Positions 12,034-48,429 of a stretch of 64,000 nucleotides of DNA are shown piece by piece. Under the pieces are notes generated by a model that worked only from the letters and a program-made list of their open reading frames with translations, was not told the DNA's origin and searched no databases. The stretch is taken from assembly GCA_030407315.1 (NCBI GenBank), contig JALQPE010000158.1, positions 1 through 64,000 on the forward strand. The letters run 5' to 3'. The position numbers and the translations under genes are program-made. Positions within the stretch are counted from its first letter, which is position 1. Each line of letters starts with the position of its first letter. This DNA comes from Asparagopsis taxiformis (Eukaryota > Rhodophyta > Florideophyceae > Bonnemaisoniales > Bonnemaisoniaceae).

Positions 12034-12988
12034 GATGAAACAGGGATTTCCAGAATCTGTTGTTTAAGTAGCACTCTGCGGGCGGAAATGACGTGTAGGA
12101 GAACAATAGAGGGATGAATTTGAAACGGAGCGGTGCGATGGGAGGCCCAGAAAAACGATACCTAGGGTGCGAATTACGCTTTGAAGCACATGACCTGGCA
12201 GAACAGGCGCAAATTATTGTATCTTCTACCGCCTTCTCTAGTCTATAATGACGTCATCACTACAGAAATATAGGAAAACACTAGCATATGGGGCCTACTG
12301 GAAGGGGGAGGCGAGGAGTAGGAAAAATGGCGCACTTTCCTGGACGAGGAGTCCGCGCTTCCAGTGATGATTTGGACGGTATATATCGATGACGTCATTG
12401 CATGCTCTGAGCACACTTGGCAGGCAGTCAAAGCGGGCCACGTGGATGTGGGCGGCTAGGAAACAGCAGTGTGGGAGAAATTTTATAATTTTCATGTTGC
12501 AAGCGAGCAGTGAATCTGCATTGCAATATATAAATTTATGCTAATTTAAGATATCACACCGAGTACGATTCAACGAGAGATTGTGCTTTCAACTTGTAAA
12601 TAGGGCCGAAAATGGTAGAGTATACGAGTAGGAAGTACGTGTATGAGAAAATCAGATTCAGTATTAGTGCCTAGAGCATCACTGCGAAATAAACGGCCGT
12701 TTTCCGGAAATGGATACATCTTGGCTGGGTTTGTGGTTAGGGAATGCGATACAAGATAGCAAAACGATGTTGAGTCCGGATGAAATAGCAATCAATGTGC
12801 ATAAAGCAATGAGCATAGGGCAAAGCATTGTGGTGAACCAGTTCATTGGATCGAATGAAAGCCTGGAAAGGTTTCGTAACGGTTAAAAGTAGTAGTACTG
12901 TATTGAGATAGTAGTCATGTCATAGAAGTTTAGAGTTGTATTCTATGCAACAAAACTGAGCGAAGAAGAAAAGAACAAAAACATCAAG
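12034..12988. other. upstream region of the 1267-aa gene; two TGACGTCA sites
   Basis: No gene seen. Two perfect TGACGTCA palindromes lie at 12249-12256 and 12390-12397. The sequence matches the CRE site bound by bZIP factors; whether that matters here is unknown. Short minus-strand frames are not convincing. Confidence 0.4.
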
Positions 12989-15900
12989 ATGGCTCCGAGA
13001 CGGACTCCTATTCGAAAGAAAACCACAAGTCGTAGGACAAAGGCGAGATTCGATTCACTCAATGTGGCCAGTCCCAGTAAACAGCTTCCTGGGAAACTGC
13101 AGGGAGAAATCCGCAGCAGTGATGCAGCCTGCATGAACAAAGAAATCCCGAGAGGTAATGAGCTACGACGTGAGTGTACCACAGATGACCTATTGGAGTC
13201 CCCAATCCCTATGGGTGACACAATAGAAGGTTGTATTGATGTGTACAGCAACAACGATGAAGCTGGAAGTGACATCTACGTAGCATCGAGCACGCTAATG
13301 GAATCGGAAGAAGCAACCGGACGAGGTTCTGATTCCATTTCAACTGGAGGCCCGATAGACCGAAATGCTGGGGATGAAGCATGTGGTGATTTCAAGGCAT
13401 TACTACAATGGCCTGCGATGTATGGGGCTCTTCAGCTGAGTGGAACTCAAAGAATGACAAGAGCCCACTATGAAGGTACCCTGTTCGGAATGAATTTCCG
13501 CAGAGATCCAAGTGAGCACGTCCCGTCGGACTCTGTGATGCGACAGAAGATACTACCATTCTTGAGGAAACACTGCTATGCAAAGAGCTGTGACATCGAG
13601 TTTCCGATAGACCTTCGAAAGAGCGGAGCAAGAGCTGCACAGCATCGAGGTGCAGTAGGAACCCGTGGAACAACAGATGACAGAGACAATTGTGGAGGAA
13701 TGGCGAAAGTTCGTATTGTACTCCCAAGCACATGGGCTCTGAAAGATGTCCAGACTCGACCAATCTTTGAAGCATTCCGCAGTGATGCGAACAATCGAAG
13801 CTCGGAAGGAGAAAAATCAACCGCAGAGTGCAGCATTGAAGATTCGTTCATTGCAAAGTGCAGGAGGGGTGTTTTGAGCGACCCATTCGTTCGCACAGCA
13901 GTTGTTCCCATTGACAGCGATGGGAAAAAGGGTTTGAAGCACATTTATGTACCTGATGGAACAGCAATTCGAATCCGATGTCATCCAGGAGCTCGTCAGG
14001 TTGCCGTCATCGAAAGAGCAAAAGGGTTCAGGAAGAATGACAGAGATGGTGGGAAACCGAAGAGGAGAAGAGTGGCGGTTACGTCGTTGTGGGAACTTCA
14101 TGCTAGGACCATAGTTACCTATGAGGCTCGACACGACGGTGAGCATGATGTGCATGTCGAAAAATATCTGCAGCCGCGAATGTCACATCTATTGGAATGG
14201 GAGAGGCAGCATGCTCTGCGAGCGATATCGCAATGTGTAATCGGAGCAGGAGCCAAGGGAAAAGGAACACGAGCTGGGGACGTGATAACCGTTCTATTAC
14301 CAATTGGAATGGAAGAGGGTGATATTGTTCCACACGTCGTATTGGTGAACAGGTATTTGAAAGAGCAGGTCGGAGAAGCATCCACCATGTTACTTTGCTT
14401 TTCACCGGGCGCGAGCTTTGCTGAAGCCAGAAACCCGCCCGATAGACTAGGAAGCCCCAACTATGAAGAAATTCGTGTTTCAGGGGTGTTCTCGGATGGT
14501 TTCGGAGACCACAGGTCGCAATGGCACCCAGCGTCTCCGCGAGAAGATGCACCATGTTGGGGAAAGCTGGAGGATGGTCGAAACTACTTTGTTTACCGAT
14601 TTCTCCTTTACACGGATGACTTTGAACCATTCACAAGCAGGAAGGGAAGTTTTGGTGGATGCTATATGTTACCTCTCAATCTACCGCCTCGGAAAAGGGG
14701 AAGCTACCAAGCGGTTCGAGTGATTGGTTTGCCACCTCCGGGAGTGTCCACAAATTGTGTATTGCGATATATCGTTCAAGATATAGTGCGAGGAAGCACA
14801 GAGGGTTTCCCAACGAAAAATGCAGAGGGAGAAGATGTTGTGGTATTTCTAGACCCAGTGGGGAGCATTGGAGACTATCCTGCAGTTTCACATACCCTGG
14901 ATGTTCTTGGACACACATCAAACTCTCCGTGCCACATCTGCAGTTTCCGCAAATATGACCTGAGCAGTACTGGTGGCACGAAGAATGCATACACTTCGGT
15001 AGTGAACGGGCAAACATCGACGCATGCCAGGAGCAAGTATCGGAATGCATCGACACGTAAGGATGCCACAGAAACCCAGCTTCGCACTCTCGGACTGGCT
15101 GCAGAAGAAGGGGAAGATTTACCATTTCATGTCCTGAGCACTTCCTTGGAAGCAGTGCAGGAAGAAGTACCGAAGACGGAAAACGGAGTTTCAGTTGTCC
15201 CAGCAATTTTTGACCCGTACCGTTCCGCAGTGATAGCACCTGACCATCTATTGTCTGGACTGGCACAAGATGTACTGAACGCTTGTATTTCAGCTGCCAG
15301 CCCACGAATTCGAGAGGTAGCTGAATTGCAAATTCTGGGCGCTCTGAAGAAGTTCAGGATGGGAAGGCAGAACCGTTTATTTGGAACCAACAATCTGCTT
15401 TCCATGAACATGAGTGACATATTCAGTGTGCTGCTGATAGCACCTATGGCATTCGAAAACGCAGCTCGAATGATGGATGGGAAAGGGGAAGGTCATCGTG
15501 AAAAATTTGATGGGGCCGTCAAACTAGTAGTGATGTTTCAGAAGCTGGTTTCGTGTATTAGTTTCATGCCCGTATGGTGGAAAGACGGTCCACATGAAGT
15601 AGAGACGGCTGACGGAGAAGGTGGCAGGAATGAATACATTCTGGGAAGAACTGTAGACTACGTGGAGACGTTGAATGAGTATTGTCGGAAAGTGAAGGGA
15701 GCAGGAGCACATTTGGACAAGCCTAATGTTCATCGTCTTGTCGAGTTTTGTGTTCATACGCTTCCTGCCTACGGCTCTGTGAAGCACGTGCAGGAGCTTA
15801 TATTCGAACGGATGCATCAGCCGCTGAAGAAAGGTGTGAGAATGTCCAATCACCAAAGCGAACAGCTTTCAGCGCTGGAATTAGTTCTTGCGGATGACTG

Positions 15901-16792
15901 GCAGACGAGAGTGGCCATTGTTTTGCGCGAAATCGGCATGGAGCCACAACATTGGTCCTCGTCCGAATGCTCTCAAATGGTCAACGTTCTTTCACAGGAG
16001 CTAGGGAGAGAAATAGATGTGGAAGACGAGGTAGTGAAAAACTGCTTCCAGGAACCGGTTCTCCAGCTTCTCTCCCAGCGTCGAGGAAAGATATTGTCGG
16101 CGGATGGTGAAATTGTGACGTGGAGAGGGCATGGAGGTATATCTATTGACGAGGTCAAGGAGTACATGAATGGAAAATGTGATATGGCAGAGGGTGCTGT
16201 AGGTGTTTTCAAACGGTTCTTTACCGAAAGGTACGGAAGCGGAACAAGCGGGTGTGGAAAGTATGCCGAATGGGTGAGAAGAGTTTCTAGAAGCACTACG
16301 ACAGAGTGGGGAAGGAAAACAGTGCAGAGGTCTGGCTCTCTAGAATCAGGAGCTATCATCCATGCTGTTTGCCCTGAACAGAGGAAATGTGAGGATGGTG
16401 CAACTTCACAAGCGATTCTGTACCCGGCGTCTCGTCTCACATCAGAGATAATGCGGGGAAGAATTAATTATGAACCGCGGTTTTTTATTGTTCTAGCGTT
16501 CTTTATCCTGAGGAACGAGAGTGCGAGAGATGAGCAAGGTACAGCTTATGGAGTTTGCCTGGGTTTGCAAAAAACTGATGAAGGAGTGTTCAAGGTCGAA
16601 GAGAGGCGACGAACAGTAATTGTGGAGATGAGTGAGGGAGTCACTGAGGTGCTTGGTATGCACTATTGCAATGGGAGTGTATGCGAATATGATGAGAACA
16701 TTAGGGAGGTAAGGCACGGACCCGGACTGCTGGAGGGTGGAGAGATATATGCACTATGTAGGCGAGACGGATTTCCACCGAGGACTGCATGA
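12989..16792 (+). CDS. putative large DDE transposase (CACTA/KDZ/Plavaka-like)
   Basis: Single intact frame of 1267 codons, the longest uninterrupted DNA-transposon gene here. Residues 1-130 are basic or low complexity. A candidate catalytic core follows: SDGFGDHR near residue 500, FTSRKGSFGGCYMLPLNLP and IGLPPPGVSTN near 550-590, LDPVGSIGDYPAVSHTLD near 625 followed by SPCHIC (paired cysteines), DPYRSAVIAPDHLLSGL near 755, and HVQELIFERMHQPLKKGV near 935. The arrangement (Asp, then DYPA plus a CxxC pair, then a PDHLL helix and a late Glu) parallels the cores of CACTA tnp2 and Plavaka transposases; the family call is inferred from motif order only. It lies upstream of the ParB-dioxygenase genes in the same orientation, and a 39-bp palindrome follows its stop by 120 bp. 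It may mobilise that cassette. An unrelated host protein cannot be excluded. Confidence 0.65.
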   Translation: MAPRRTPIRKKTTSRRTKARFDSLNVASPSKQLPGKLQGEIRSSDAACMNKEIPRGNELRRECTTDDLLESPIPMGDTIEGCIDVYSNNDEAGSDIYVASSTLMESEEATGRGSDSISTGGPIDRNAGDEACGDFKALLQWPAMYGALQLSGTQRMTRAHYEGTLFGMNFRRDPSEHVPSDSVMRQKILPFLRKHCYAKSCDIEFPIDLRKSGARAAQHRGAVGTRGTTDDRDNCGGMAKVRIVLPSTWALKDVQTRPIFEAFRSDANNRSSEGEKSTAECSIEDSFIAKCRRGVLSDPFVRTAVVPIDSDGKKGLKHIYVPDGTAIRIRCHPGARQVAVIERAKGFRKNDRDGGKPKRRRVAVTSLWELHARTIVTYEARHDGEHDVHVEKYLQPRMSHLLEWERQHALRAISQCVIGAGAKGKGTRAGDVITVLLPIGMEEGDIVPHVVLVNRYLKEQVGEASTMLLCFSPGASFAEARNPPDRLGSPNYEEIRVSGVFSDGFGDHRSQWHPASPREDAPCWGKLEDGRNYFVYRFLLYTDDFEPFTSRKGSFGGCYMLPLNLPPRKRGSYQAVRVIGLPPPGVSTNCVLRYIVQDIVRGSTEGFPTKNAEGEDVVVFLDPVGSIGDYPAVSHTLDVLGHTSNSPCHICSFRKYDLSSTGGTKNAYTSVVNGQTSTHARSKYRNASTRKDATETQLRTLGLAAEEGEDLPFHVLSTSLEAVQEEVPKTENGVSVVPAIFDPYRSAVIAPDHLLSGLAQDVLNACISAASPRIREVAELQILGALKKFRMGRQNRLFGTNNLLSMNMSDIFSVLLIAPMAFENAARMMDGKGEGHREKFDGAVKLVVMFQKLVSCISFMPVWWKDGPHEVETADGEGGRNEYILGRTVDYVETLNEYCRKVKGAGAHLDKPNVHRLVEFCVHTLPAYGSVKHVQELIFERMHQPLKKGVRMSNHQSEQLSALELVLADDWQTRVAIVLREIGMEPQHWSSSECSQMVNVLSQELGREIDVEDEVVKNCFQEPVLQLLSQRRGKILSADGEIVTWRGHGGISIDEVKEYMNGKCDMAEGAVGVFKRFFTERYGSGTSGCGKYAEWVRRVSRSTTTEWGRKTVQRSGSLESGAIIHAVCPEQRKCEDGATSQAILYPASRLTSEIMRGRINYEPRFFIVLAFFILRNESARDEQGTAYGVCLGLQKTDEGVFKVEERRRTVIVEMSEGVTEVLGMHYCNGSVCEYDENIREVRHGPGLLEGGEIYALCRRDGFPPRTA

Positions 16793-16912
16793 TTTTTAGG
16801 GAAGAATAAAATGAATAACCAGATGCATCACATATGAATTGTACACTCTAGGGCGGTGGTGGATTGGTGCAAAGTAGTGGGGAGAGGATCTGAGAGGATG
16901 GAGGGAGGTATG

Positions 16913-16951
16913 CTTACAGCAAAGTCATCGTAACGATGACTTTGCTGTAAG
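16913..16951. repeat. 39-bp palindrome, copy 1
   Basis: Arm CTTACAGCAAAGTCATCGT, one central base, then the exact reverse complement. A partial second arm (ATTACAGCAAATTCATCGAT) follows at 16963. Confidence 0.95.
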
Positions 16952-17650
16952 AAAACGTTTCATTACAGCAAATTCATCGATAGTTAAGGTTAAGTAACCA
17001 ACTTTAGGATGTCCAGAGGACCTGCTCGTTGTAAGGAATAAGGAATATTGATCAACTGACGAAGAGGAAGCATTTTGAATCGACTAGGGTAGGAACGCAA
17101 TGAGATTTGGTATGCAAGAAAACTGAATCGCAGTAGTGAATAGGTAGTTGAAATGAATTCATATTGATGTTCTTTGGTGTATTGTCCATTGGAGCACATT
17201 GAAAACCATTTATTTGATCACCGTTTAAATAGTCTATGAATCCTTTGCAGCCGAGTACGCCAATAGGAAGAAATTCAAGCAGTGGCCTGCACGGGAAGCG
17301 TTTATTTGTGAGTAGCAAAAGTTAGTGTAGAAATGAATTTTTCAGACTTGTAGGAGAGGTGGATCGTAGTAAATGTATAAAACTCACGTAGAATCGATTG
17401 ATAGGAATCAATGGTACGGAAGAAGAAGCGAGGTGGAGAGTGTGGATGAAATAGGTTGTTGGAATATGAATGATAATTGACGTGGTGAGGTAAACGGGTT
17501 CGATTGCATTATATGCGCTAGAGGTACATACTATTAGGTGTAGATTGATGGAAAGGGCTAAACGCTTTGTGGAGGTATCAGGATCAGGTAGAGTCAGAGG
17601 TGCTGAGCGGGTGCAGCGTAAGGTTCATCAGGACTGAAGGTAGGTAGGGA
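16952..17650. other. intergenic, upstream of first ParB-dioxygenase gene
   Basis: AT-rich; no gene or clear repeat beyond the palindrome remnant at its left edge. Confidence 0.4.
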
Positions 17651-20600
17651 ATGTCTTGTCCGGACAGTATAAGAGAGGAAGCTGAGAGACGGGAAGCGCA
17701 CTCGGAGGTACCACAATTGTGGATTTCATCGTCTACACAACATTTGAACAGAGAACCGATTGAACGAACTGAGATTGCAGGGATTACAATGGGAGACAAT
17801 AGTATCATGAATACTACAGCGGAGAAGAGCAATTCTCCTTCTGCTGAAGAGAAAAGCATCACTATTGCTCAGTACAGCTCTTCTAAAGTGCAAGTTGATC
17901 CTCGCAAAGTGAAATTTCCGACAGTGACCTCCCGTTTGGTGCGACCGGGTCGTGTAAACGAACTGGCCAGCATTTTCATGGATAGAGGTTTCTCTACCAC
18001 TGGAACTATGATTACAGTCTGCAAAATGGAAGATAACGAAGGAGACGAGTTTTACTGCATCGATGGCTCTCATCGCATAGCTGCTCTGCAACTATGCCTG
18101 GAGAAGTACTCAGGAAAGAACAGGGATTCCTTGGAATTGGTTTGGGTACAACAGTTGATTGCGCCGAACGGGCGTCTAATTTTCGATGCGCTGGAGGTTC
18201 TGAAACTGTCTCTCGAAGCCAATATACAAACTCACGATGTCGCTTCTGTGAGCATTGCCGACAATGTGTGTGCGGTCATAGAGTTTCTCAGGTTTTCCAA
18301 CCAGATGGATCTTCCTGTTGTCCGGCTTATTCCTATTCTGAAAGAAGTGAGCTATATTCTGCCGTCCGACAGGAACCGTTCGGAGAACTCGTATAGGCAG
18401 TACATCAACATTGCGAAGGGGTTCAATCGCACAGACAGCGTTGCTTTCGTGTACTGGAGCTCTATCCCTAGCGTTTACAATGCTTTGGATAGGAACAGAG
18501 AAATCGAGGATGCAAGAACCGAGGGAAGAGATCCGGACTTTTCTCGAATTGACTCTGCCGATATGTACGGGTGCGTGCTCGATCTTGTCAATAACGCAAT
18601 ATTCCGCAATGGCACGGACGGACGCGGGACGCGCGATAAGGAGTGGTTCCAGTGGTTTGTGCTCGAGATGACAGCGTCGTGGACAAGGATGAGGAGGAAG
18701 AGAGGACTTGTCAGAAATATCGGAAGCGGAAGTCCGTTCACGATGCGCACTTGGCTACTGGCTCTGTTGGCCATCTATGATATGGCAGAGGTCGTCCGCA
18801 AGTGGTTGAACTCTGCAACGATGGAGGAATTCGTGCGAACGGATTTGGCAGCAGAAAACGCGAAGGAGGTCGGGGATAATGATCATCGCATTGGAGAGCG
18901 CATTGTATTCGTCCTTGTCGACTTTCATGACGACGTGGTAGACAGTAGCAGTCTGAGAACCAAGAACGGGATGTTTACAAACAGTTTTTACGACAAACTG
19001 GAATATGCTACCGGGACAAAGGCAATGCAGGAGACGAAAGCGGAGGAGGAGAGGGAACGGAATCGCATGACCCCCGGAGAAATAGAAAAAGCACTTGTTG
19101 ATGGCGCCAAAGCAGAAGACGAAGAAGCACCTACTGCCGCAGAACAGGGAAATAATTCTACAGAGAAGGAAACTGTGGAAACTTCTGGTCCTGTTCAAGC
19201 AGAAGAAGGAGTATCTGCCGAAGCCCAAGCAGAGCAGGAAGTTTCTGCTGTTGTGGAGGAAGAACAGGAAATTACTCCAAATGTGGTGGCTGAAGAAGTG
19301 ATTCCTGCTGTCGCGACGAAAGCAATAGAAGAGGCACCTCTGAGCACCCCGAAAGAAGCAGAAGACCGTCCTGCCGCAGCAAAAGAGGGAGGACAGGAAC
19401 GTCCTGCCACGCGTCTTGCAGCAGCTGAGAAGAGGGAAGCAGAACGTCTTGCTGTTCTCCAAAAAGAACAGGAACGTCTTTCAGCTTCAAGGGCAGAGCG
19501 GGAAAGTCGTGCCAGGGATAATTCGCCGGGAAGGATTGTCAGAGAAGATCTTCCTCAGGGAAGGAAACAAAGCGGCGATACGCAAAGTCTGGATATCAAC
19601 TTGGACAATAGTGGTCGCATGGACATAGACACGCCTGGACAACAAGCTGGAGATGCGCAGAACCGCTCTGTGATATTGAAACTTCGAATCAGGACACCAG
19701 AAACTTACAGCACTAGCCCGGCCGAAGTGGACAAGGAGAATTCGGGAAGAAGCAGGAGTTCTGGTGGAAGCGGCGATGAAAACGAGTCCAGGTTTAAGAA
19801 GCGAAGAAGGGAAGATACTAGCGCGAAGTTTTCTGAGCCCAATACGCCGGATGACAACATTGAGATTGGGCCTCCCCGGGAAAAGAAGAGTAGAGTCAAT
19901 GCAAGAAACGAACGACTGGAGAAGAAGCACCACTCTTCACTGACGAGCAAGAAAACTCCCTTCCAGACCGCACATTCGCAGAGGACATACCTGAGAAGCT
20001 GCCTTTATGCGTTCCTTCCAACTCGAGAATGAAGTATTATATCACAGAAGAAGACATTGATACAATCCGGACGGAGATAATGGAAGCAGCTGCAGGCTAC
20101 TCTACTTTGGTATGTCCCCTCGGTTCTTGTGAAAGCCAACAATACTTCAGCTACCAGAGAAGAATGATCGACGAGCTTGGTTACGTGGTGTTGCAAGACA
20201 TTTTCTCTTCTACTACAGTGGGAGCAGCTACGCACGAGTTATTCACACAGATGGCCAGCACATTCCAAGGTACTACAAGTGGCTCAAGTGCAAGTCAGAA
20301 GAACCCGTGGAAACCACTTCGACCGAAAGACAGCACTGGTGTATTCAAGACGGACCGGAAAAGCATCTGCGATGACCTTGAGCAAGAAAGCGCGCGGCAG
20401 TACAGGAACAAGCTGATTCTGGAGCTAGGTAAGGCGATTTGTGCGGAGAACCTGAAGCTCGGGTTTGGAAGAGAAGAAGCGGTGGTCTTTCCAGAAACGG
20501 GTCTTCGTCTGATTTTGACCGCAGAAGGTAGTCAGGAGCAACTTATGCATACCGATGTTCCCGTCCGTGAGGGAACTGGAACTGGTCCTCTCAACTCGCC

Positions 20601-20907
20601 ATCATATTTCATGATGGCTGCTGGTGCGGATGGGTTCATCATTCGTATCGCCAAGTTCAGCCATGTGTGCCTAAGTCATCCAGCGAAAGACAAGTACCGC
20701 GTGCCAGTGACGAACGTGCGCATCCCACCGTATTCCCTGCTTGTATGCCGAACGGACGTGTATCACGGAGGAATGGGATTCGCGGAGGGTCGTTCTTCGG
20801 TGAGGTACCAGCATCCTATCCGGTCCCATCTATCACTGCGAACTTCCAGGGAGAAGTTGCTACAGCCTCCCTTCAATGTCAACTACTGGGAGCGTTTAGA
20901 TATCTGA
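17651..20907 (+). CDS. ParB-like domain fused to predicted 2OG-Fe(II) dioxygenase, copy 1 (one frameshift)
   Basis: Read here as one gene. The first 793 codons (17651-20032) hold a ParB/sulfiredoxin-like domain: VTSRLVRPGRVNELASIF, then the nucleotide-site motif IDGSHRIAAL near residue 137, and a helical region with SIADNVCAVIEFL. A long acidic linker follows (19040-19900) with a basic KKRRRED stretch, a possible nuclear signal. The second frame opens at ATG 20029, but the reading extends upstream in that frame to about 19900 and aligns there with copy 2 (FTDEQENSLPD against FEDAQENPIPD), so the apparent 4-base overlap of two genes is really a one-base frameshift near 19920. The dioxygenase part has the HxD of LMHTDVP, a distal His in DVYHGG and an Arg/His-rich strand (RYQHPIRSH), as expected for iron and 2-oxoglutarate ligands. 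Predicted nuclear DNA-targeted oxidation; substrate unknown. Confidence 0.7.
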
Positions 20908-21156
20908 TGAAATTAGTTCTTAATAGCATTCTATGGCAGGCATCAAGGCCGCCTTCAAGTAAACGATGAAAGTTAGGCTAGTACATGACGTTTGCGTATG
21001 TAGACGGGTCAGGAGAATACAATACTCAATTTAATATGAGAAGGGGAGGAAACTATGGTGGGCACTACTAGAATAGAACAAGGTAATATCGCAGTCGTCT
21101 TTGGTTGCAACATTGAGGTGAGGAAGGCTTACAGATGATGCAGTTTCGCTGGGGTG

Positions 21157-21195
21157 CTGACAGCAAAGTCATCGTTACGATGACTTTGCTGTAAG
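21157..21195. repeat. 39-bp palindrome, copy 2
   Basis: Same arms with T instead of A at the centre; the outermost arm has G for T (CTGACAGC). Confidence 0.95.
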
Positions 21196-21295
21196 AAATC
21201 AAATCATTACAGCGGCCACAATTTTTTACCGGGTAAAAAATTCTTGCTGATTTTTTACCCGGTAAAATTTTCTCACCACTGTAATCAAACCTTTC

Positions 21296-21334
21296 CTTAC
21301 AGCAAAGTCATCGTAACGATGACTTTGCTGTAAG
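21296..21334. repeat. 39-bp palindrome, copy 3
   Basis: Perfect arms, central A. It lies 100 bp from copy 2, with the TTTTACCGGGTAAAA palindromes between them. Confidence 0.95.
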
Positions 21335-21480
21335 CATCCCGGGTAAACGGCTTCGGCTGTAAGCGTTTGGGAGTTTCGTCCGTCTCCCACCCTGGGAAGG
21401 GTGAGAAGGGAAGTGTGGAGCCGGGAACATCGTACAACGATGGTTTGGACGGCTGTTGACGGCTCTGGGGAGCACTCTGC

Positions 21481-21900
21481 GTCGTGCAAGCCTGGTTTGC
21501 GCTGGCTGCACTACCTGGAATTGAACGGTTCTGTGCGCAAAGTTTACTCATGAAGGAGGTAGGGTGTTGTGTACCACACCAACCATAGTTACTAACTAAC
21601 ATTTGCAGTGTACTCTAGTGATGTAATTATTATTCTAGTTTCTAACTATACAATGATATTAAGTAAGTCAGATGTGCACAGAGCATGGTCTAAGCCTAGC
21701 ACGGTAGAGAAAGATGGAAGAAAGATTGAAGGGTAGGCATGCAGAGGTATGAAGGCAGCAGTATGTGTAGACTATGGCAGTGGTAAGAAAATATTTCATG
21801 CACCAAAGGGTGGGCAGAGTGACATTAGAGAGGTGGTGTGTAGGGGGAAGGTAGGTGGAGATGATGAAGGAGGACAACAGAAATGAGAGCGAGGGTTGAG
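21481..21900. other. spacer, no gene seen
   Basis: No supported gene; low-complexity AG-rich stretches. Confidence 0.4.
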
Positions 21901-21937
21901 ACCAACGGCTTACAGATGGAGCAGTTTACCAGGGATG

Positions 21938-21976
21938 CTTACAGCAAAGTCATCGTAACGATGGCTTTGCTGTAAG
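21938..21976. repeat. 39-bp palindrome, copy 4
   Basis: One mismatch (GGCTTTGC). The symmetry continues outward: GCAGTTTACCAGGGATG on the left pairs with GATCCTTGGTAAACTGC on the right, giving a near-palindrome of roughly 100 bp that ends about 200 bp before the second ParB-dioxygenase gene. Confidence 0.95.
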
Positions 21977-22209
21977 GATCCTTGGTAAACTGCCTGAGCT
22001 GTAATTGTCGTACAACGAAAAGTGATGTGGAAGGTTCGGATTGGTCAACCGCTGAATATCATTACCAGGGTGTATACTAATAGGAATATGTCAGTTCTCT
22101 AAGTTTCGCCTATCTTACTCAGCTTACGCAGCAAAACAGCTTGTCGTTCAGATCTTCTTCTCTCTTTCTCAATCTTTCACTCTTCTTTCCTCATTTCTTC
22201 ACCAAAGCA

Positions 22210-25200
22210 ATGGCTCAACAATCCCCCAACGCTTTCGACCGCCAGGTGCGCTCTGCCAGCCGCCGTGACAATGATTCTCCTTCTCCCTCTCCTTCTCCTT
22301 CTCTGGCCCCCCTGTCCCCATGGACGTTTGCGAAGCTGCTGCAGCGCTGACCCAGCTCAGCCCAGCACCTAAGCCCGTCCCCTCCCCCCCTTCCGCTTCC
22401 GATCCCGCGGTTGTCCCGACAATCGACGCTGGCGTTCCCGCAACTCCGCTTCCGGCTCAATCTGCCGAAGCGGCGCCAGCCGTCGAGGGATCTGGTGCTC
22501 CTCTGCCTAGCTCGCCTGCTCCGGACATGATCATCGCGTCCGGCAGCGACTTGGCAGAGGATGCGGAGAAGGTCGATGATCACAACGCTCGTGACATCGT
22601 ACCGAACAAGCCTCTCCGCAGCACCAGGCTGGCCTACCCTGGCACAGTGCCCATCCCGGTGGATGTGGACTACGACATAAGTCCGGAGAGCTGCCGAAAC
22701 ATTCCAGTCTTCATTTCCCCCTGGATGTTTCTCCTCCGGCAGTCGTGTCCAGGGTGGTCAGGCCGCATCGCGTTGATGAGTTGAAGAAAACGTTTCTCAC
22801 TCAGGGATTTTCCGTGATTGCTTCACGCGTGTCCGTCTGCGAGGTGATTGATTCCAATGCCAAAGTCCGACTGCAATACGTCGATGGATCTCACCGAGTG
22901 ACCGCGTTGAAGGCCATTCTCGAGTCGGCTGGACCTGCTCCTGCGAAGGACAGTCCAGAGTGGGAGGAGTTTGTCAAGTCTGACATCTACCGTCGCTTTG
23001 GAACTATTCCAGTCGACTTTCTCCTCCCACCGACTCGGCTTGGCCGGGATGTCTTCTGCTCCGAAGAAGTACTCCCGCTTTCACGGCTGATGAACTTCCA
23101 CACCCACAATGTCAGCGAGGTAACAGTTGCTGACAATGTGTGCTCTGTGATGGAGTTCATCAATATCCACCGCCTGGGAAAGAAGAAGATCGAGCCGACC
23201 GTTCAATACATAAAAGAACGGAAAGCGCTGAGCTGGATTCGTCCGAGACAGCTCATGCGCTACGTCTCGATCGCGCGAGGGTTCAAGACCATTGAAAGCC
23301 CTGCTTTCAAATACTGGTCGAGCATCCCGAACAGGCCGGAGTTCGTGCAGTTTTCTTCGACGGAGGATCTGGCTGGTTGTACGGTGAACTTGTTGTTCAA
23401 TGGGTCGTTCAGGAGTGCTCCGGATGTGCAGAAGTGTTTCATCCTGGAGATGACGGCGCGCTACACTTGTAGCCGTCGGTCGGCCGGGCTGAAACCGTAC
23501 TCGGTTGGCACCATTGGGCAGGAATGGATTGCTGGTTTGTTGGAAATCTTCGGGTACGTGAAGGAGGTGGCCGAGTACTGGAACGTGTCGGATGTGTTGC
23601 GGATGCTGGATGGGTCAATTCCCAGCGTGGGTGACCCGAGCAAGAGCTTCGACATTCGCTCGCGCGTTGTCGAAGTTCTTGCTCAGATGGTCCCCAAGAA
23701 GGGGTGTTGGGCAGACTTCCGTCCCAAGGAAGGCCCCCCCCCGATGGTTACAAGTCCGAGAACATTTTTCCCCGTAAGAAGTCTGTCTTCGGGAAGGACG
23801 CCAGGAAAATGCTCCTGCGCGTCACTGGGTACCGCGACATGCAAATGCGGAAACGCTTTCACGCGATGTACCCAGACATCCCACATGCTGCGCTCCCAGC
23901 CACATGTGGTGATGATGCCCCCATCCCTTCCTCTTCCAATTCCTTGCCCATCCCTTCATCCTCCATCCCTTTGCCCCCACCCCCTCAACTGGAATCTTCC
24001 AGCAATTCCGAGGTTGCCCCTGTTCCTCTCACTACCCCTGCCGTGTCTGCATCCTCCCCTGCGGTGACCCCGGTCAAGCCGACTGCGCGTGGTCCCCAGG
24101 CTGGCAGTGAACAGTCTGGTCCAGTTTCCCACGCCGGGACTGGTACCCCCAACCGTCCTGTCCAAGCCACGCAGGAGCAGGTCTCACCGGCTTCGCAGCC
24201 TGAGCCGGCGACTCCGGCTGCCGAGCAGCACCCTGCTGCTCCGGCCCCCGCTGTCGAAGCTTCCCGTTCTGCATCTGCTAGCAGTTCGGGAAGCTCCAGC
24301 GATGACAGTTTCGTCCCTTCACCATCCGGTGGGGTTGGACAGAAGACGGTTGCGAGGATTTCGACGGAGGGCCCTACTCCCGAGAATGTGGTCGAGGGCA
24401 GCAGTGCGAAGGGCGGTGCAGATCCTGACGAAGATGTCATTGAAGTCAGTGATTCTGCACCGCCCGGAGTGGAAACTTCTGGGAGGAAAGTGATGCCCAG
24501 AAGGAGTACCCGCCTGCAAGCGAGTCGTTCCGGTCGTGGTGGAACGGCGGGTGGTGCTGTGGAGGTCGTCGAGCTGGAGAGCGCCCCCGAGGATGCGGGT
24601 GAAAACTCCATCCTCAGGAAGCGTAACTTGGATGCGCCTTCTGCGACGCCCGAGCCTTCTACCAAAAAGAGAAGGCTCGGTGAGACTTCATCAAAGTCGT
24701 CGTCAAAGAAATCCAAGTCGGCTTCCCGAGGTCGCTCTCGGGAGCCGGTTCTCCAGTTCGAAGACGCCCAGGAGAATCCCATTCCCGACAGCATCGTCGA
24801 TGAGAATGTGGCCGCCGTTCTCCCCAGCGCAATTGCGTCTGGCAGCCGGATGAAGTACTATATGGAAAGTACGACGGTGGAGACGGTTCGGGCGGAAATG
24901 AGGGCGGCAGCATTCCAGGCAGCTGCATCGCCGGGTGCTGAGGATACGGTGGTGGACAGGTACTTTGCGGTGAAGAAGGCATTGTTGGAAAACTTGGGGG
25001 TTATTGTTATGGAAGGCCTGTTGGCATCGTCCACGGCTGGTAATGCGACGCATGAGTTGTTCGGTCACTTCGCTAGGCAGTTCCCGCTGGTTGAGGAGGT
25101 TGAAAAACCCTCCCAGCAGTCTGATTCTAACGATGACGACAGGGAGCCACAGGACGAGCCGCCAGCTTTCGCAAAGCCCGGCTTCGATCCTTCGCCGTGG

Positions 25201-25839
25201 CAGTTCATCCACAACTTGGGTGATGCGAAGGACCGCATCGATGGTGGTCGTGGGCGCCTCTCTCTGCCGCGGCGTGAGTTGTGCGACAAGTTGGAGGAGG
25301 GGAATTTGGAGATGTACAAGAACAAGTTGGTGGCAGAGCTTGCTCTTGGTGTTTGTGCGGAGTTCTTGAAGTTGGGAATGGAGGGTGATGATCCTGTCTT
25401 CTTCCCGAAGACAGGATTGCGGCTGCTTCTTACAGCAGATGGGGCTGCGGACCAGGATGGGCACACGGACTTCAAGGTATCAACGAGTCGTGTTGCAGGA
25501 CCTACCGAGTCTCCATCATATTTCATGATGTCGAGCGGAGCAGATGGATTCTCTATAGTAGCTGCCCCTTATAGTCATGTATGCCTGGCCAATCCGGACG
25601 CCGATATGTGGAAGGTTCCCATTCATAGGCTGTATGTGCCACCCTATTCCGTATTGGTTGGTCGCGGTGACCTTTATCATTACGGGGTCGGCTTCAAGCG
25701 CGGAGATATTCCTACGGGCGAAAAGCTAGTCTATGGCCTGCCCACGCGCGGCCACATCTACTTGAAGACGGAGAAGGACGTCCTCACGGACCACATCCAC
25801 ACCGTCGAATATTACAAGTACGATAGGAGCAATAGATAG
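22210..25839 (+). CDS. ParB-like domain fused to predicted 2OG-Fe(II) dioxygenase, copy 2
   Basis: Begins at ATG 22210 and ends at 25839, about 1210 codons, GC-richer than copy 1. It is broken by three one-base losses, each in a run of C: a C6 run near 22305, a C5 run near 22718 and a C9 run near 23733. One extra C at each place gives a continuous protein matching copy 1. ParB-like part: VSRVVRPHRVDELKKTF, then VDGSHRVTALKAIL near 22875, then TVADNVCSVMEFI. A long Pro/Ser/Ala-rich linker follows with a KKRRLGET basic stretch. The C-terminal domain starts at MKYYMESTTVETVRAEM (24850), carries HTD at 25456-25464, PPYSVLVGRGDLYHYGVGF near 25640-25695 and a final LPTRGHIYL. A GTATAC element near 22070 could be a core promoter. 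The fusion is the same as in copy 1, so the two domains must work on the same target. Reaction and substrate are unproven; DNA or chromatin is likely. Confidence 0.75.
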
Positions 25840-26269
25840 CATATCAGAAGTACTAAAACCTATACTACTGTTCCCTGCTATAAAGTTCTGTCTTTCTCAT
25901 CTCAACATTGTTACCTTAGCCCATTTTTCAGTTCTCATCTATACATCTGTCCTTCATCTCATAGTTTAGTGCTACTCAGCAGATTGCTTGCTACTTTTTA
26001 ATATTAGTCTACAACGTTATATGATTTTACTAGCTAGGCCGTAGGGGGAGACTAGTTTCAACCCTTGACAACGCGCAGATTTCGACTACGAGAGCCGTCA
26101 CTGTGATAAATTATTTGTAGAATTTTCGTCTATCTTCCCACCTACACTAGGCTACCTATATATATACAGGGTATAACCTGAACAGAGACCACGTGAGGTA
26201 AAATACTCCTGAGAGCTGCTCACAGCCGTACAGACCTTTGCTGAGCAATTTACCCGACTTCAAACTTCG
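25840..26269. other. 3' flank of second ParB-dioxygenase gene
   Basis: AT-rich, no gene. It presumably holds the transcript end; no firm signal. Confidence 0.4.
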
Positions 26270-26520
26270 CTTCTTACCTTTACCAAGATGAGAGAAGGAC
26301 GAAACTCCCTGCTGCTTACAGCCGAAGCCGTTTACCAGGGTTCCTTACAGCAAAGTCATCGTAACGATGACTTTGCTATAAGGAACCGTTTCCTTGCAGT
26401 GGCCAAAGAATTTTTTACCGGGTAAAAAATCAGCAAGAAATTTTACCGGGTAAAAAATTGTGGCCGCTGTAATGATCTGCTGTCAGCACCCCGCCCGAAC
26501 TGCCAAAGCTGTAAGCAGTC
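26270..26520. repeat. inverted repeat, right copy 1
   Basis: Reverse-complement partner of 21120-21420. Where the left copy has the palindrome next to GGTGCTGACAGC, this copy reads GCTGACAGCAGATCATTACA, lacking that palindrome, as expected from deletion of an extruded hairpin. Confidence 0.85.
26344..26382. repeat. 39-bp palindrome, copy 5
   Basis: One mismatch (GCTATAAG in the right arm). Confidence 0.95.
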
Positions 26521-26795
26521 TGGCTTCACCCTCTCCCCCATTTCTCTACTCCGCCTTCATCATCCCAGTCTCTCTGGTGACGACTGACGCCTTTCGGTTC
26601 CCCCCTCACGCCCCCTCTCGCAATGAAATACTCGTCTATTACCACGATAGGCTACTCGTACTGCCGCCTTAATTTTCCTCTACACACACCCTCCCATCCG
26701 TCTCTTCCGTACTACGATCCTAGGCTATCCTACCTTACGATTATAGTTGTATAGTGAGTAGCTAGAGTCCTACTTACTGACGACTATAGTGCACC

Positions 26796-26825
26796 GGAAC
26801 CGGCGCCGGTTCCCGCCCGGGCGGG
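26796..26825. repeat. adjacent GC-rich palindromes
   Basis: GGAACCGGCGCCGGTTCC followed directly by an overlapping CCCGCCCGGGCGGG, then a CCGTGAG/CTCACGG inverted pair (26843-26885). Confidence 0.9.
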
Positions 26826-27076
26826 TTAAATATATATTTTATGCCGTGAGGCACAGGTACCATATGGTCGCTGTGGCTCACGGCACAAGGAGTAGATTTT
26901 GCCACCAACAGCCGTCCAAACCATCCTCTCGTGATGTTCCCTACTTCAAACTTCGCTTCTCACGTGAGACAGCAGGGAGTTTCTTCCTTCTCCGATCTTG
27001 GTAAAGGTACCTTTACCAAGATGGGAGAAGGACGAGACACACTGCTGCTTACAGCCGAAGCCGTTTTCCAGGGTTC

Positions 27077-27115
27077 CTTACAGCAAAGTCATCGTAACGA
27101 TGACTTTGCTGTAAG
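27077..27115. repeat. 39-bp palindrome, copy 6
   Basis: Perfect arms, central A. Confidence 0.95.
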
Positions 27116-27189
27116 GAACCGTTTCCTTGCAGTGGCCGAAGAATTTTTTACCCGGTAAAGAAATCATGGCTGCTGTAATGATTTGTTTT

Positions 27190-27228
27190 CTTACAGCAAA
27201 GTCATCGTAACGATGACTTTGCTGTCAG
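27190..27228. repeat. 39-bp palindrome, copy 7
   Basis: Arms perfect except the last bases (CTGTCAG). Confidence 0.95.
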
Positions 27229-27532
27229 CATCCCCGGTAAACGGCCCGCACTGTAATGGGGTGACTGCTTCTCCTACATCGCTCTGTTATTGGTGTTCTA
27301 CATGCTGCGTTGCTACACAATTTCGCACTCACATCTTTCTAGTTTCTCTCCTTTTCGTATCCATAGGTATAGCAGAAGAAAAGTGGATAGTTTGCACTCC
27401 AGGCCGCAGATGCCTTCCTGCAGTCATGTCACGATTGTTGTAGTGTAGTCTATAATATCTAGCGCTCTTGGAAGATGATGCACAGTCTATTGTCTCTGTC
27501 AATGCGTGTTTAATCAAATCTATCAAAGTAGC

Positions 27533-30500
27533 TCAGTTAGCTGGCCAATATTTTCTACCATAGTCAGCAAATATCTCCTCATCAGCTTCAACGTCTCTGG
27601 TCAGAACGACCTTGACAGCATGGGGATTCTTGATATTTGAAGCAAAGTCCGGTTTGTCTATGGCATCGCCTTGTCGAAACTCGGCTGACTGTGTTCGACT
27701 CACCTCGGTCGCTTTCTCCGTTCCGTCAATGACCCGACAATCATTGAGGTAGCTGGTACAATTATAGACCGCTGGAACGAGCCAGACCTTCCGAACAGGT
27801 GCACCCCTCCCTATGTACGTGGTTTCCAATTCCATGTTGTAGTCCTGGAACCTCTCTCCTGTGCACCCAAATCCTTCCGGGCCGTACATCACTGATCTCT
27901 GCGGTTCTGAGTCTCGAATCTTCGCATAGAAAATCGTCCCGTTGTACCAGCCAATGACCGTCCCCTTCTTCAGTTTCTTCGCCGCGAATACGCCAAACCC
28001 ACCACCTCTTACCTCCGATTGCGAAACATAGACACCGTAGAATGCGGCATCAGCAGCCAGAATCGCGTCCGGGTCTATGCTCCAAAACGAGTGCATGTCC
28101 TCGGCCGGCCACTGGTCCATAGGCACCCCGCTCAATCTGTGAAGCATAGACCCGTCCTTCTTCATTGACGCAACGAACACAAGCAGATGGTTCGGCAATG
28201 CTGTCACAGCAGGTAAACCTTCTGGTGCATCTGAGATGTGCTTCTGACGAAGCCTTGGAGCTTTTCCTGTGACCGGTACCGACTCGTCCCCAAGAATACT
28301 CTCCACCTCACGCTGCAAGATCCCCCCATATCGCCCGGCTTTCACCTCACTGACGAACGCATGCAGTATCCACTCCTGCGATGCATCGTGGCACCTTTTT
28401 TCCTTCTCACACCCAATGAACCGACGATACGTACCATCCCTCAACGTCATACACGCTATGGCTGTGCTGTATGTTCCCGAGAAGAAATCCATCACGATAT
28501 CGTTCTGCTTCGAAAATCGTTCCAGAAGCTCACGAAGAGTGGTCAACGCCTTCTGCTCATGGCGCAGTCGGTTGTTCTGCCCATCGTATTGAGCTTCACC
28601 AGCCGACAACCTCGGAACGTTGTCAATCGCGTTGGTGAACCCAGGTTGCCTCGATATGTCCGGATTGTGCAACCTGTAATCCACCATATCGTATGCAGCC
28701 ATACCCTTCCCCCGCTTATACGCATGGATAACGAAATCGTGCATATTATGCAGTGTGCACGTTTTCGTCGATGGATTGGACGTAAAGCTGTGTGGTCGGC
28801 GAGATAGCACGACTGGAACACTGTCCACAATCATCTTGCCAGGCTCGGCATTTCTGATTGCATCCATCCATGCCACGAGTTGGCGCACGCTGGAATAGAT
28901 TAGAGCATGACCGCCAGGCCGAAGAACTCGAACTATTTCACACGCAACACTCGCCAACTCTTCCGGCTCCAGAATATCGTACTCCGAGTTTTCTCTGCCG
29001 CCTTCCCGCCTCGTGTTGAATGGAGGATCAGTGAGCACAAGCTGAACACTGTCCTCCAACACGCCATCTTCCAGGAAACTAATTTTGTCCTCCACCTCTT
29101 TGGCTACATCAGTGGCGTCACAATTCACAGTGTGAATGTAACGCCCCATCACAGCTTCCAGCTTGGTGACATATTCCGGCTTGGATTCCTTTCCGACGTC
29201 AACGAGCGGTGCTTCTGTAGGCGATACAGTGTCAACCTCCATAGCGTCATCCTCGGCCGTACCTTCTCTTGTTGCTGTTTCGCTAGCAACCGCCGCATTA
29301 TCGTCCTCTCCACCACCGCGCTCCAGCCTAGCCTTCTTCCTCTGTGGCTCCAGACTATCCTCTTCTATATCCTCGCTGCCATTGTTTGGCACTGCTGCGG
29401 ATATTTCCATCTGCGCAGGTGCACCTTCGAGGATGCCAGGCTCGGGCGTATCCTCAAGACTGTGCAACTCATCCATGGTCAGAGGAAGCTTTCGTTGCTC
29501 TCGGGTTCGCAATAACCAAGCCTTCAGCCTCCTCTGACCATCCAGGGCATGAGACGTGTTCAACTTGGCTCGCATGAACGAGTTCAAGCCGAACTTGTCA
29601 GGAGTGTCGAAAAGCAAGGCTCGAAGTCTCTGCATCAGCTGACCACGCTCGGCGAACACATTCACCTCAGTGACACATTGGCGTATCGACAGCAGAAAGG
29701 CACTTGTCAATGATCGCAGCCTTGCATCCACAGCCACTGGAAGGTCGGCACAGAACCCGTTTTCACTGTCTACAGTTTTCGGGACAATGGTCAGGTTTTT
29801 CCGATGCTCCTCGACCGCGCAGCCATCAGACCGATTCGGGAGTGACCTGAAGCAAAGGCTCGCAGGATCGAATACCATGAACGGCCGGCACATCGATTCA
29901 ACATCCTCATACCCCAACACTCTTGCCCCGGTATCCCACGCAGCTAACACACGGTCGACAACAAATCCAAGCTGGTTGGCTTGCGCACTGGATGTTGCAA
30001 TTCCAACCATTCCACCACCACCAATGGCCCCGGATGTGGCTCTGGCCCGCCTGAATGGCGCACTGCCCATCTCCTTACTGCGAATAGCCAAGATACACTG
30101 GCACATCATAACCATCAGCCTCCTGAACCGCTTCTGGCTAGCCTGCAAAGAATCTTGCATGTCGGATGTAGCGCCGTCTAGAAAGTACCTGCTCGAAAGC
30201 AGTTCGCGGTTCAGTGGAGAGGACAATTCTCCGCGGGGTGTCTTGCCAAACATTTCGACGGCACGAGAACTAGTCACCCCCACCTGTTTCGGAAACTCAA
30301 CCATCCTCGGAGAATCACCCATCTCTGCATTGAGTCCCCATGCATGACAAAACATTTGCCACAGACGCAAATCAATCGAACTCGAATCTTCTGCTCGGTG
30401 ATACGGCCGAAGCACAGCCAGGATAGACATGCATGAGCTGTACTGCGGTTTACCACTCAGGCTTGAAGCAATTTGGCCGCTTGGATCGCAGGATTTGATC

Positions 30501-31009
30501 CAGCCCAACACATCAGCCATCCTCACAGACGAAATATGAGCGTACTTGTCCTTTCCGTTTTGGACCCAGTACTCGTCTCTGAGATCAACGGCGATCATCA
30601 GATACTCAACAAACATCATGCGCCTTTGCAGGCCTGCAATGTCGTTGGATGTCGTCGCTCTCACACGGTCCAGCACAACAGCAGTACTGCTGTTGGTGTC
30701 CGCCACGATAGACTCTTCTCGCATAGGAATCGTAACGCCAGGAGGAAAGACGCCCTTCTCCATTCCACGTACAATTGCCATGCAGCGGTGCGCTCCATCC
30801 AATATCTCCAGAACGCCTTCTCGAAACCTGCCAGTCACGGGATGAGCTGTGTCATAACCGCTGTTGCGAATGCTCTCCATGAGCGCTTCCACATGACTTG
30901 CATCAACATCGCGAATCGATACGAATTTGCTGACTTGATTGGGGTCGATGAACACCCATCCGTCGTGCTTTTCACCGTGATTGTGGAACGTTCCTTCCAT
31001 GGCGAACAA
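27533..31009 (-). CDS. ParB-like - DNA amino-methyltransferase - SET domain fusion protein
   Basis: Intact frame of 1158 codons; ATG 31009, with a second in-frame ATG 9 bases on. Residues 20-140: ParB-like domain (DASHVEALMESIRNSGY, then LDGAHRCMAIV, the nucleotide-site motif). Residues 140-540: helical, unassigned. Residues 540-610: acidic linker with a basic QRKKARLER stretch. Residues 620-900: S-adenosylmethionine-dependent methyltransferase of the beta class, because catalytic motif TDPPFNT (about 660) comes before the cofactor motif MDFFSGTYSTAIAC (about 840); DPPF favours N6-adenine, but N4-cytosine is possible. Residues 990-1158: SET domain, with GGGFGVFAAKKLKKGTVIG, NCTSYLNDCR (a variant of the NHSCxPN site) and IFADYGRKYW. 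Such a protein could mark DNA bases and histone lysines at the same site. A frame this long without decay implies recent selection. It is convergent with the dioxygenase gene at 22210 and divergent from the truncated gene at 31514. Confidence 0.85.
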   Translation of the reverse strand: MFAMEGTFHNHGEKHDGWVFIDPNQVSKFVSIRDVDASHVEALMESIRNSGYDTAHPVTGRFREGVLEILDGAHRCMAIVRGMEKGVFPPGVTIPMREESIVADTNSSTAVVLDRVRATTSNDIAGLQRRMMFVEYLMIAVDLRDEYWVQNGKDKYAHISSVRMADVLGWIKSCDPSGQIASSLSGKPQYSSCMSILAVLRPYHRAEDSSSIDLRLWQMFCHAWGLNAEMGDSPRMVEFPKQVGVTSSRAVEMFGKTPRGELSSPLNRELLSSRYFLDGATSDMQDSLQASQKRFRRLMVMMCQCILAIRSKEMGSAPFRRARATSGAIGGGGMVGIATSSAQANQLGFVVDRVLAAWDTGARVLGYEDVESMCRPFMVFDPASLCFRSLPNRSDGCAVEEHRKNLTIVPKTVDSENGFCADLPVAVDARLRSLTSAFLLSIRQCVTEVNVFAERGQLMQRLRALLFDTPDKFGLNSFMRAKLNTSHALDGQRRLKAWLLRTREQRKLPLTMDELHSLEDTPEPGILEGAPAQMEISAAVPNNGSEDIEEDSLEPQRKKARLERGGGEDDNAAVASETATREGTAEDDAMEVDTVSPTEAPLVDVGKESKPEYVTKLEAVMGRYIHTVNCDATDVAKEVEDKISFLEDGVLEDSVQLVLTDPPFNTRREGGRENSEYDILEPEELASVACEIVRVLRPGGHALIYSSVRQLVAWMDAIRNAEPGKMIVDSVPVVLSRRPHSFTSNPSTKTCTLHNMHDFVIHAYKRGKGMAAYDMVDYRLHNPDISRQPGFTNAIDNVPRLSAGEAQYDGQNNRLRHEQKALTTLRELLERFSKQNDIVMDFFSGTYSTAIACMTLRDGTYRRFIGCEKEKRCHDASQEWILHAFVSEVKAGRYGGILQREVESILGDESVPVTGKAPRLRQKHISDAPEGLPAVTALPNHLLVFVASMKKDGSMLHRLSGVPMDQWPAEDMHSFWSIDPDAILAADAAFYGVYVSQSEVRGGGFGVFAAKKLKKGTVIGWYNGTIFYAKIRDSEPQRSVMYGPEGFGCTGERFQDYNMELETTYIGRGAPVRKVWLVPAVYNCTSYLNDCRVIDGTEKATEVSRTQSAEFRQGDAIDKPDFASNIKNPHAVKVVLTRDVEADEEIFADYGRKYWPAN

Positions 31010-31437
31010 AGGTAGAGTTTTTAAGAAAGGGATAGTTGGTTGCTGCTTGACCAGGGTGGCGCAAAGCAGAAGTTGGTTGTTTAAAACAAAGTGTCAGCGA
31101 GTGGTAGCACTTCGGTGGCTATTTCCTTTCCACCCCTGTCCGAACCTTTACAAGATAACTACATCGACTGTTAGCTCAATAATCAATGTAATACTAAAGT
31201 AATACTCAAAATATTTTTCCATGCAATTTATTGGGCCGCGTAACATCTCTAAGCGTATCTTTGTAGTCCAATCGTATGCATCCGACATTCACTTCTAGAA
31301 CGATTATTCACATCAAATTTTATGCTGCAATCAGTTCATGGCAGACATCATCCACACTGACGTGTCAATTTTGTCAATTGTCCATTCTATTTCTACACCA
31401 CCTAAACATCTCTTCTCGACCTTTCCAATCCTCCTAG

Positions 31438-31443
31438 TATATA
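31438..31443 (+). promoter_or_regulatory. candidate TATA box
   Basis: TATATA about 75 bp before the ATG at 31514, a sensible core-promoter distance. The assignment rests on position alone. Confidence 0.35.
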
Positions 31444-31513
31444 CTACTCTTTAGCAGAAGGTAACGGTTAGGCTTTCACTAATACAACAATTCTATCCCA
31501 TAGCTATCCCAAC

Positions 31514-31789
31514 ATGCTTCCTCTCGCTCCAAACGACGTTATAGAAGTTCAATGGGAACTTCGGCCGTTTGGGAGGAAACGAAAAATTGTGTGGTGGTCT
31601 GCAATCGTCAAGGAAATTACTCAGGTCAAGACTGAAACAGACCCATTCCTCCATGCATTGCTCGAATACAAAGCTGAATATGGTTTCGACTCTACCCTTT
31701 CTCAAGTCAAGATTTCAGATCGTAACGAGCTCGTCGACAAGGATTCCGGAAGGGTTCTCCCGTGGCGAAGTGGTGAGCTTCGCAGTATG
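31514..31789 (+). pseudogene. unknown protein, cut off by an LTR insertion
   Basis: The first 92 codons (MLPLAPNDVIEVQWELRPFG onward) look like a real N-terminus with a compact strand-rich region (KIVWWSAIVKEIT, then FLHALLEYKAEYGF). The frame is then replaced by LTR sequence at 31790. Family not recognised. It is divergent from the ParB-methyltransferase-SET gene 504 bp away, so the two may have shared a control region. The remainder of the gene is not found at the other LTR. Confidence 0.5.
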
Positions 31790-32626: not shown

Positions 32627-32629
32627 TTC

Positions 32630-43428: not shown

Positions 43429-43431
43429 TAG

Positions 43432-48427: not shown

Positions 48428-48429
48428 TT

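Follow-up and report, generated by a model that had tools for sequence, protein, structure and literature searches.

A gene predicted to join ParB-like, DNA methyltransferase and SET domains is cargo of a large CACTA-like transposon in a red alga

What is a gene predicted to join ParB-like, DNA amino-methyltransferase and SET domains doing in the genome of a red alga? The question arises from a 64,000-nucleotide stretch of Asparagopsis taxiformis DNA (assembly GCA_030407315.1, contig JALQPE010000158.1, positions 1 to 64,000; hereafter the window), in which an initial annotation had proposed such a three-domain protein. We found that the gene, here called the writer gene, moves together with an element that has inverted ends of 13 bp, and we are nearly certain that it is a transposon gene. 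The best explanation, to which we give an even chance, is that its product is the chromatin "writer" of a large CACTA-like transposon, part of a mark-setting kit that would let the element resist host silencing, time its own transposition, or both. The assembly comprises 141.5 Mb in 3156 contigs and contains 13 matches to phycobilisome domains, 11 of them on a single contig (C469), and 10 chlorophyll-a/b-binding-type matches.

The writer gene and its predicted domains lie in the window as follows.

27533..31000, minus strand: writer open reading frame, 1155 amino acids (aa), with a ParB-like head, a DNA N6/N4 amino-methyltransferase and a SET domain
30590..30952, minus strand: probable ParB-like domain, residues ~20-140, motif LDGAHRCMA
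28376..29047, minus strand: amino-methyltransferase domain, residues 655-878, DPPF (661-664) N-terminal to FSGT (843-846)
27557..28000, minus strand: SET domain, residues 1004-1151, motifs GGGFGVFAA, YLNDCR and EIFADYG

The minus-strand frame 27533-31009 is free of stops over 1158 codons, as the annotation had claimed. Because P0001, a database record for this protein, begins at the ATG at 31000, three codons inside this frame, the protein is most likely 1155 aa long (27533-31000). Pfam recognizes N6_N4_Mtase at residues 655-878 (E 3e-16; score 60.5 bits, cut-off 26.7) and SET at residues 1004-1151 (E 4e-6; score 27.6 bits, cut-off 22.4). Two relatives, P0002 and P0003, have the same pair of matches, with SET above its cut-off in all three proteins, and a profile built from the three writer sequences matched the solved structures of DpnA (E 3e-8) and EZH2 (E 3e-4). 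The order of motifs, DPP[YF] ahead of FxGT, is that of beta-type amino-methyltransferases. In the SET domain, the motif Tyr is kept in four of four aligned proteins (as DYG, or EYG in a more distant relative, L062), and so is the Asn. We are confident in predicting a methyltransferase domain, and scarcely less so a SET fold. Identification of the head is probable: residues 26-107 matched the PHROG families phrog_4272 (E 1.7e-5) and phrog_1033, a "ParB-like partition protein" (E 3e-3), and the head of P0002 matched both more strongly (E 1.6e-6 and 6.2e-5, respectively). Every motif quoted in the annotation is present, and two of its three domains stand on Pfam matches above cut-off; the third is carried by PHROG matches and a motif, with nothing from Pfam or the Protein Data Bank (PDB).

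Outside this genome, the writer methyltransferase is ~25% identical to phage enzymes (13 records). No relatives of the writer were found among viral contigs, and a search of contigs from other genomes returned six distant methyltransferase loci, bacterial or archaeal. A profile search of the protein database with the writer alignment (A1) recovered nothing beyond the window's own cluster.

Within the assembly, the gene is abundant. Its family (family 1) has at least 40 copies: the best 40 of 3828 first-look candidates were scored, and all 40 were full length, stop-free and 99-100% identical. P0002, which is 43% identical to the window protein over 99% of its length, represents a second family in the same genome, also with at least 40 copies; the best 40 of 3780 candidates were all open, and 21 of them tied at an identical top score. 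Between the two families, identity is 54% in the methyltransferase, 55% in SET, 42% in the ParB-like head and 36% in the middle region. In all four family 2 copies fetched, a divergent gene flanks one side and a dioxygenase-like gene the other; the parts compared are 34% and 47% identical, respectively, to the corresponding family 1 neighbors. Since these neighbors are retained in family 2, the cassette is conserved. In the same four copies (L051-L054), tandem repeats of varying length lie between the convergent methyltransferase-SET and dioxygenase-like genes.

A third family was judged from one sequence read, L062, which aligns with the window protein over 916 residues at 28% identity (E 3e-99) and has DPPY, the FxGT order and SET. 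The DGxHR box of the head, with its conserved Arg, occurs in families 1 and 2 and is absent in this third family. The core of the protein would therefore be methyltransferase plus SET, with a ParB-like head that appears variable and not essential to it. A piece of a further methyltransferase-SET gene resembling L062 lies on the minus strand at 3178-3960 of L019, just outside the element copy on contig C436. P0003 was not closely matched anywhere in this assembly, the best match being about 33%, and so probably comes from another organism. Querying the assembly with it gave 48 scored candidates with frames of 896-1255 aa and stops inside 3 of 91 matched stretches; neither the 1186-aa nor the 1174-aa frame, which belong to families 1 and 2, was among them. 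An oddity confined to the window is ruled out by the existence of families 2 and 3 and of P0003.

Eleven writer copies, chosen by protein score, which favors synonymous changes, differ by 27 synonymous and 8 non-synonymous single changes (pN/pS 0.09, p=1.5e-11; one multiple change is left out). A truncated copy found by position alone, not by score, shows 17 synonymous and 4 non-synonymous changes. The frame thus bears the mark of purifying selection, as the annotation had suggested, and a chance frame is excluded by the at least 40 open copies together with the mostly synonymous changes between them.

Where, then, does the gene end and its carrier begin? We read the boundaries from stretches around five other copies.

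10765..31789, strand not given: element copy in the window, with both ends truncated
47658..48442, minus strand: end, on the transposase side, of a further partial copy whose CACTACGGTGTTG terminus at 48442 is intact

The sequence common to the window and the five copies comprises the writer gene and its neighbors, to an extent that differs by copy. In all five, it runs upstream beyond 31789, where the window copy stops. Four of the five share one endpoint ~4.6 kb upstream, and the copy on C1567 diverges after ~3.1 kb. The common endpoint is the 13-bp sequence CACTACGGTGTTG, which recurs inverted at the opposite end of the element. The inverted ends enclose 24.8 kb on C390 and 19.4 kb on C436, which has an internal deletion; a complete element is ~25 kb in size. 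The terminus pattern has 846+873 matches in the genome, compared to 0 for a reversed control pattern. Identical 2-bp flanks, as expected of a target duplication, were present at 6 of 12 end pairs (p=4e-5), two from the C390 and C436 reading and ten genome pairs joined by position, some of which may span different elements. CACTACGGTGTTG has the 5'-CA..TG-3' inverted form characteristic of the CMCT clade of transposons, and the 2-bp duplication falls within the 2-5 bp of that clade. Subterminal GACAGTA/TACTGTC repeats are present at both ends.

Other features touch these boundaries. The window copy is cut short at 31789 by a stretch of 15 kb that lies between direct repeats of 300 bp. Directly outside its other truncated end, a 43-nt unit is repeated in tandem about 12 times (10104-10643). 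A diverged palindromic repeat around TTACAGCAAAGTCATCGTAACGATGACTTTGCTGTAAG occurs between 16883 and 27256 (at 16.9, 21.1, 21.3, 21.9, 26.3, 27.0 and 27.2 kb), recurring near the 3' ends of element genes, and is a candidate terminator or binding site. Among the first 100 terminus matches listed, pairs ~14.5 kb apart are frequent on C4, C19, C21, C101, C104, C116 and C117; the C101 copy (L049-L050), of about this length, is a derivative with eroded dioxygenase-like genes.

An open frame with mostly synonymous changes is also what would be expected of a host chromatin gene lying among repeats. That account is almost certainly wrong, being contradicted by the at least 40 copies inside a terminus-bounded element; a lone host gene is ruled out by that copy number. 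It is here that the annotation fell short: it described the architecture and the selection correctly and missed the context, in which a CACTA-like transposon carries the gene in many copies. A virus is not favored either, given the transposon-like ends and the lack of a capsid or DNA polymerase gene among the element frames scanned, which did not include every small frame.

Which transposase would move such an element? A candidate lies toward the other end of the window copy.

12989..16792, plus strand: CACTA-like transposase, 1267 aa, with D543 (YTDDFEP), D629 (GDYPA), C648-x2-C651, H915 and E940

At least 37 copies of this gene are present, and all 37 scored are full length and open. Besides its own record, we found 20 relatives at 22-43% identity; D543, D629, C648 and C651 are conserved in all 21 proteins, and H915 and E940 in 20 of 21. 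These residues stand in the CACTA order, and the C(2)C that follows the second D of the DDE is another CMCT trait. The H(3-4)H that precedes the last E in that clade is replaced by H(7)H, H915 being followed by a His at 923 (16 of 21). An alignment to a PF02992 protein of the same genome (L055) places SSDGFELF and TADFPAASK...GHNAKFFCRHC of L055 against the transposase motifs that hold the first D, the second D and CxxC, so the two D and CxxC are assigned as putative catalytic residues by this alignment, and the E by its order. None of the 21 proteins matched Pfam PF02992 (Transposase_21) at E<=10 with filters on. At that threshold the set matched seven families, one member each, at E 0.09 or worse, and the window protein matched none. 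Because of the missing H(3-4)H and the missing PF02992 match, we label the protein only as CACTA-like and do not place it as a CACTA/EnSpm member. Conventional CACTA transposases coexist in the genome, where, among the 36 PF02992 matches listed, 34 score at or above the cut-off.

On four of the five contigs that appear in both copy lists, transposase and writer gene are convergent and 10.5-10.7 kb apart. Hemimethylation gates some bacterial elements, and Spm TnpA binds subterminal repeats. By analogy, the writer could be a transposition factor whose methyl mark is read by the transposase, any effect on chromatin being secondary. The fixed arrangement and the GACAGTA/TACTGTC repeats at both ends would suit such a role; the SET domain has no part in it, however. 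We regard it as unlikely.

Returning to a kit that sets marks against host silencing, the remaining genes of the element become relevant. Proteins A and B lie between the transposase and writer genes, and the divergent gene lies at the upstream edge of the window copy.

17651..20907, plus strand: ParB-like plus dioxygenase-like protein A; in the window two frames of 793 and 292 aa (17651-20032 and 20029-20907)
22320..25839, plus strand: ParB-like plus dioxygenase-like protein B; several broken frames in the window
31514..31789, plus strand: 5' part of a divergent gene, 453 aa in other copies and cut off in the window

In C390, the single other copy read for protein A, the frame is open across the window's break, with 906 aa up to where the sequence fetched ends; most of protein A is missing from C436. 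Protein B is a single open frame of 1211 aa in C436 and is open, with a truncated 5' end, in C1833. The "decayed neighbors" of the annotation are therefore an accurate description of proteins A and B in the window, and do not hold for the intact transposase or for protein A in C390 and protein B in C436. Both proteins have the head motif, as a DGSHR box, and hhalign aligned their heads to the writer head with a score of 30.1, compared to a maximum of 17.9 in 50 column shuffles. At their C-termini, H174-x-D176, H246 and R265 are invariant in A, B and the family 2 homologue (three of three). HxD...H...R is the signature of 2-oxoglutarate dioxygenases, and on these residues a dioxygenase identity seems reasonably likely.

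Upstream, other copies contain a 508-aa frame in addition to the divergent gene of 453 aa. Neither Pfam nor PHROG matched the 453-aa protein, and the PDB offered nothing credible. The 508-aa frame had coiled-coil-type matches only, the best to a phage head-scaffolding family (phrog_11209, E 0.0012, 52 residues), which we take for a chance match between coiled coils.

How might these genes work together? We propose that the related ParB-like heads would bring the writer and the dioxygenase proteins to the element's own DNA, perhaps at the subterminal repeats or the repeats at gene ends. A DPPF/DPPY motif suggests N6-methyladenine (6mA) as product. The methyltransferase would then place 6mA on element DNA, the SET domain would methylate a lysine of a histone or another protein, and the dioxygenases would oxidize or remove a competing mark. 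Histone methylation by the writer is an assumption. As a result, the element could resist host silencing, time its own transposition, or both. That the purpose is escape from or control of silencing we put at a little under even. A more ambitious version, in which a writer and two erasers sharing a ParB address set and clear coupled marks as an autonomous epigenetic system, and in which the ParB-methyltransferase has passed between transposon classes, is more tentative.

Several observations weigh against this proposal. The assignments of ParB, dioxygenase and CACTA-like proteins rest on motifs and weak profiles. The writer head had no ParB match in Pfam, and its profile found no ParB in the PDB, where the top rows were adenylate kinases (E 0.06); hhalign gave the relationship between the A/B heads and the writer head a probability of only 30%, and the box is missing from L062. 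The dioxygenase-like domain matched no dioxygenase in Pfam, PHROG or the PDB. Alongside the absent PF02992 match, the hhalign alignment of the transposase with L055 scored 37.3 at a probability of only 22%. No 2-bp duplication flanks the other 6 of the 12 end pairs, and the choice of the 11 writer copies by score must be counted here too. Because protein B is broken in three of the five other copies read (C1567, C92 and C390), a copy rarely has the whole kit intact, and no single copy read had every gene open. Finally, ND replaces the canonical NH in the SET domain of all four aligned proteins, which thus lack the NHS motif.

This last substitution, together with a family lacking the ParB motif, could mean that the methyltransferase alone matters, with the SET and ParB-like parts carried over in degenerate form. 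Yet SET is present in four of four aligned proteins, and the SET and ParB-like parts are better conserved between families 1 and 2 than the middle region, making this account quite improbable.

A different purpose for the same proteins is suggested by a second transposon in the window, unrelated to the first.

48509-58610, strand not given: unrelated transposon, inverted arms in three blocks totaling 1220 nt, each 100% complementary
56030-57070, strand not given: DUF7869 frame within this transposon (E 7e-24)
50487..53115, minus strand: broken ParB-like and DPPY methyltransferase frames within this transposon

Its ParB-like frame (IVDGLHR) gave an hhalign score of 31.5 (probability 33%), compared to a maximum of 19.2 in 50 shuffles, and had no PHROG match. 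The DPPY methyltransferase is in two halves in different frames, both matching phrog_67 (E 5e-7 and 3e-11). ParB-methyltransferase genes, as predicted from these matches, thus occupy at least two unrelated transposons in this window. Several related families and an unrelated ParB-methyltransferase transposon in one genome would favor competition, and SET marks are often repressive. The writer might therefore repress its own element or rival ones as a form of copy-number control, with the dioxygenases as relief valves. The recent amplification visible in the tied family 2 copies sits less easily with such restraint, although it is not direct evidence either way. We consider a self-limiting or competitor-silencing kit improbable. 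Between the two transposons, 31790-47056 holds a Ty3-type retroelement (chromodomain in pol, 35155-39726) between two identical 300-bp direct repeats. RRP5/S1-like frames (40256-42085) lie between these repeats as well; the RRP5-like part may have been captured or be a separate gene.

How does the proposed anti-silencing element compare with known systems? En/Spm (CACTA) elements have 13-bp CACTA ends and subterminal repeats. The algal element resembles them in its 13-bp ends, its subterminal repeats and the D-D-CxxC order it has in common with the PF02992 protein of this genome; it differs in lacking a Pfam Transposase_21 match, in a 2-bp rather than 3-bp duplication, and in its far larger cargo. 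Bdelloid N4CMT and SETDB1 are reportedly separate host proteins, and the mark is said to be N4-methylcytosine (4mC); the algal case, in contrast, is one transposon polypeptide with a DPPF motif. What the two have in common is a bacterial-type amino-methyltransferase working, in the algal case presumably, with a histone methyltransferase in a eukaryote (PMC8885841).

Closer to the element as a whole are fungal TET+ DNA transposons (EnSpm, Plavaka, KDZ and others), which bear a dioxygenase gene beside the transposase. According to the excerpted text of PMC12730594, their ends are mostly CA..TG, and duplications in the CMCT clade are 2-5 bp. The algal element is alike in its dioxygenase-like gene near a transposase, its CA..TG ends and its short duplications. 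Unlike in TET+ transposons, its proteins have no TET/JBP match in Pfam or PHROGs, its dioxygenase-like domain shares a polypeptide with a ParB-like head and stands alongside a DNA-methyltransferase-SET protein, and its host is a red alga. Precedents in the same excerpts are the TET/JBP genes carried by transposons of fungi and the SET genes carried by those of oomycetes. The latter, HarbingerS and MuDR SET transposons, are similar in encoding SET; they differ in transposase class, and no fused DNA methyltransferase is mentioned for them in those excerpts (PMC12730594).

In prokaryotes, a ParB/Srx-like domain is fused to an adenine methylase in B. cereus, and ParB domains occur in DdrB-like proteins of mobile elements (PMC5512222). 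The writer resembles these ParB-methylases in its predicted fusion and in its mobile-element setting. The term "SET domain" is absent from the text of that source, and the systems it describes are not eukaryotic transposons. Our searches of the open-licence literature turned up no ParB-methyltransferase-SET protein, in agreement with the annotation, and no transposon with a DNA amino-methyltransferase and SET in one polypeptide beside dioxygenase-like proteins with related heads.

Transposons with a SET gene or a TET/JBP gene were already known. What the present element adds is that parts of bacterial-type ParB-methylases, so far as their motifs and profiles identify them, occur inside eukaryotic transposons. 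If the kit works as proposed, it would be a natural targeted writer-eraser system and a source of tools for the co-marking of DNA and chromatin, and it would make it possible to test directly if transposons escape silencing by means of 6mA.

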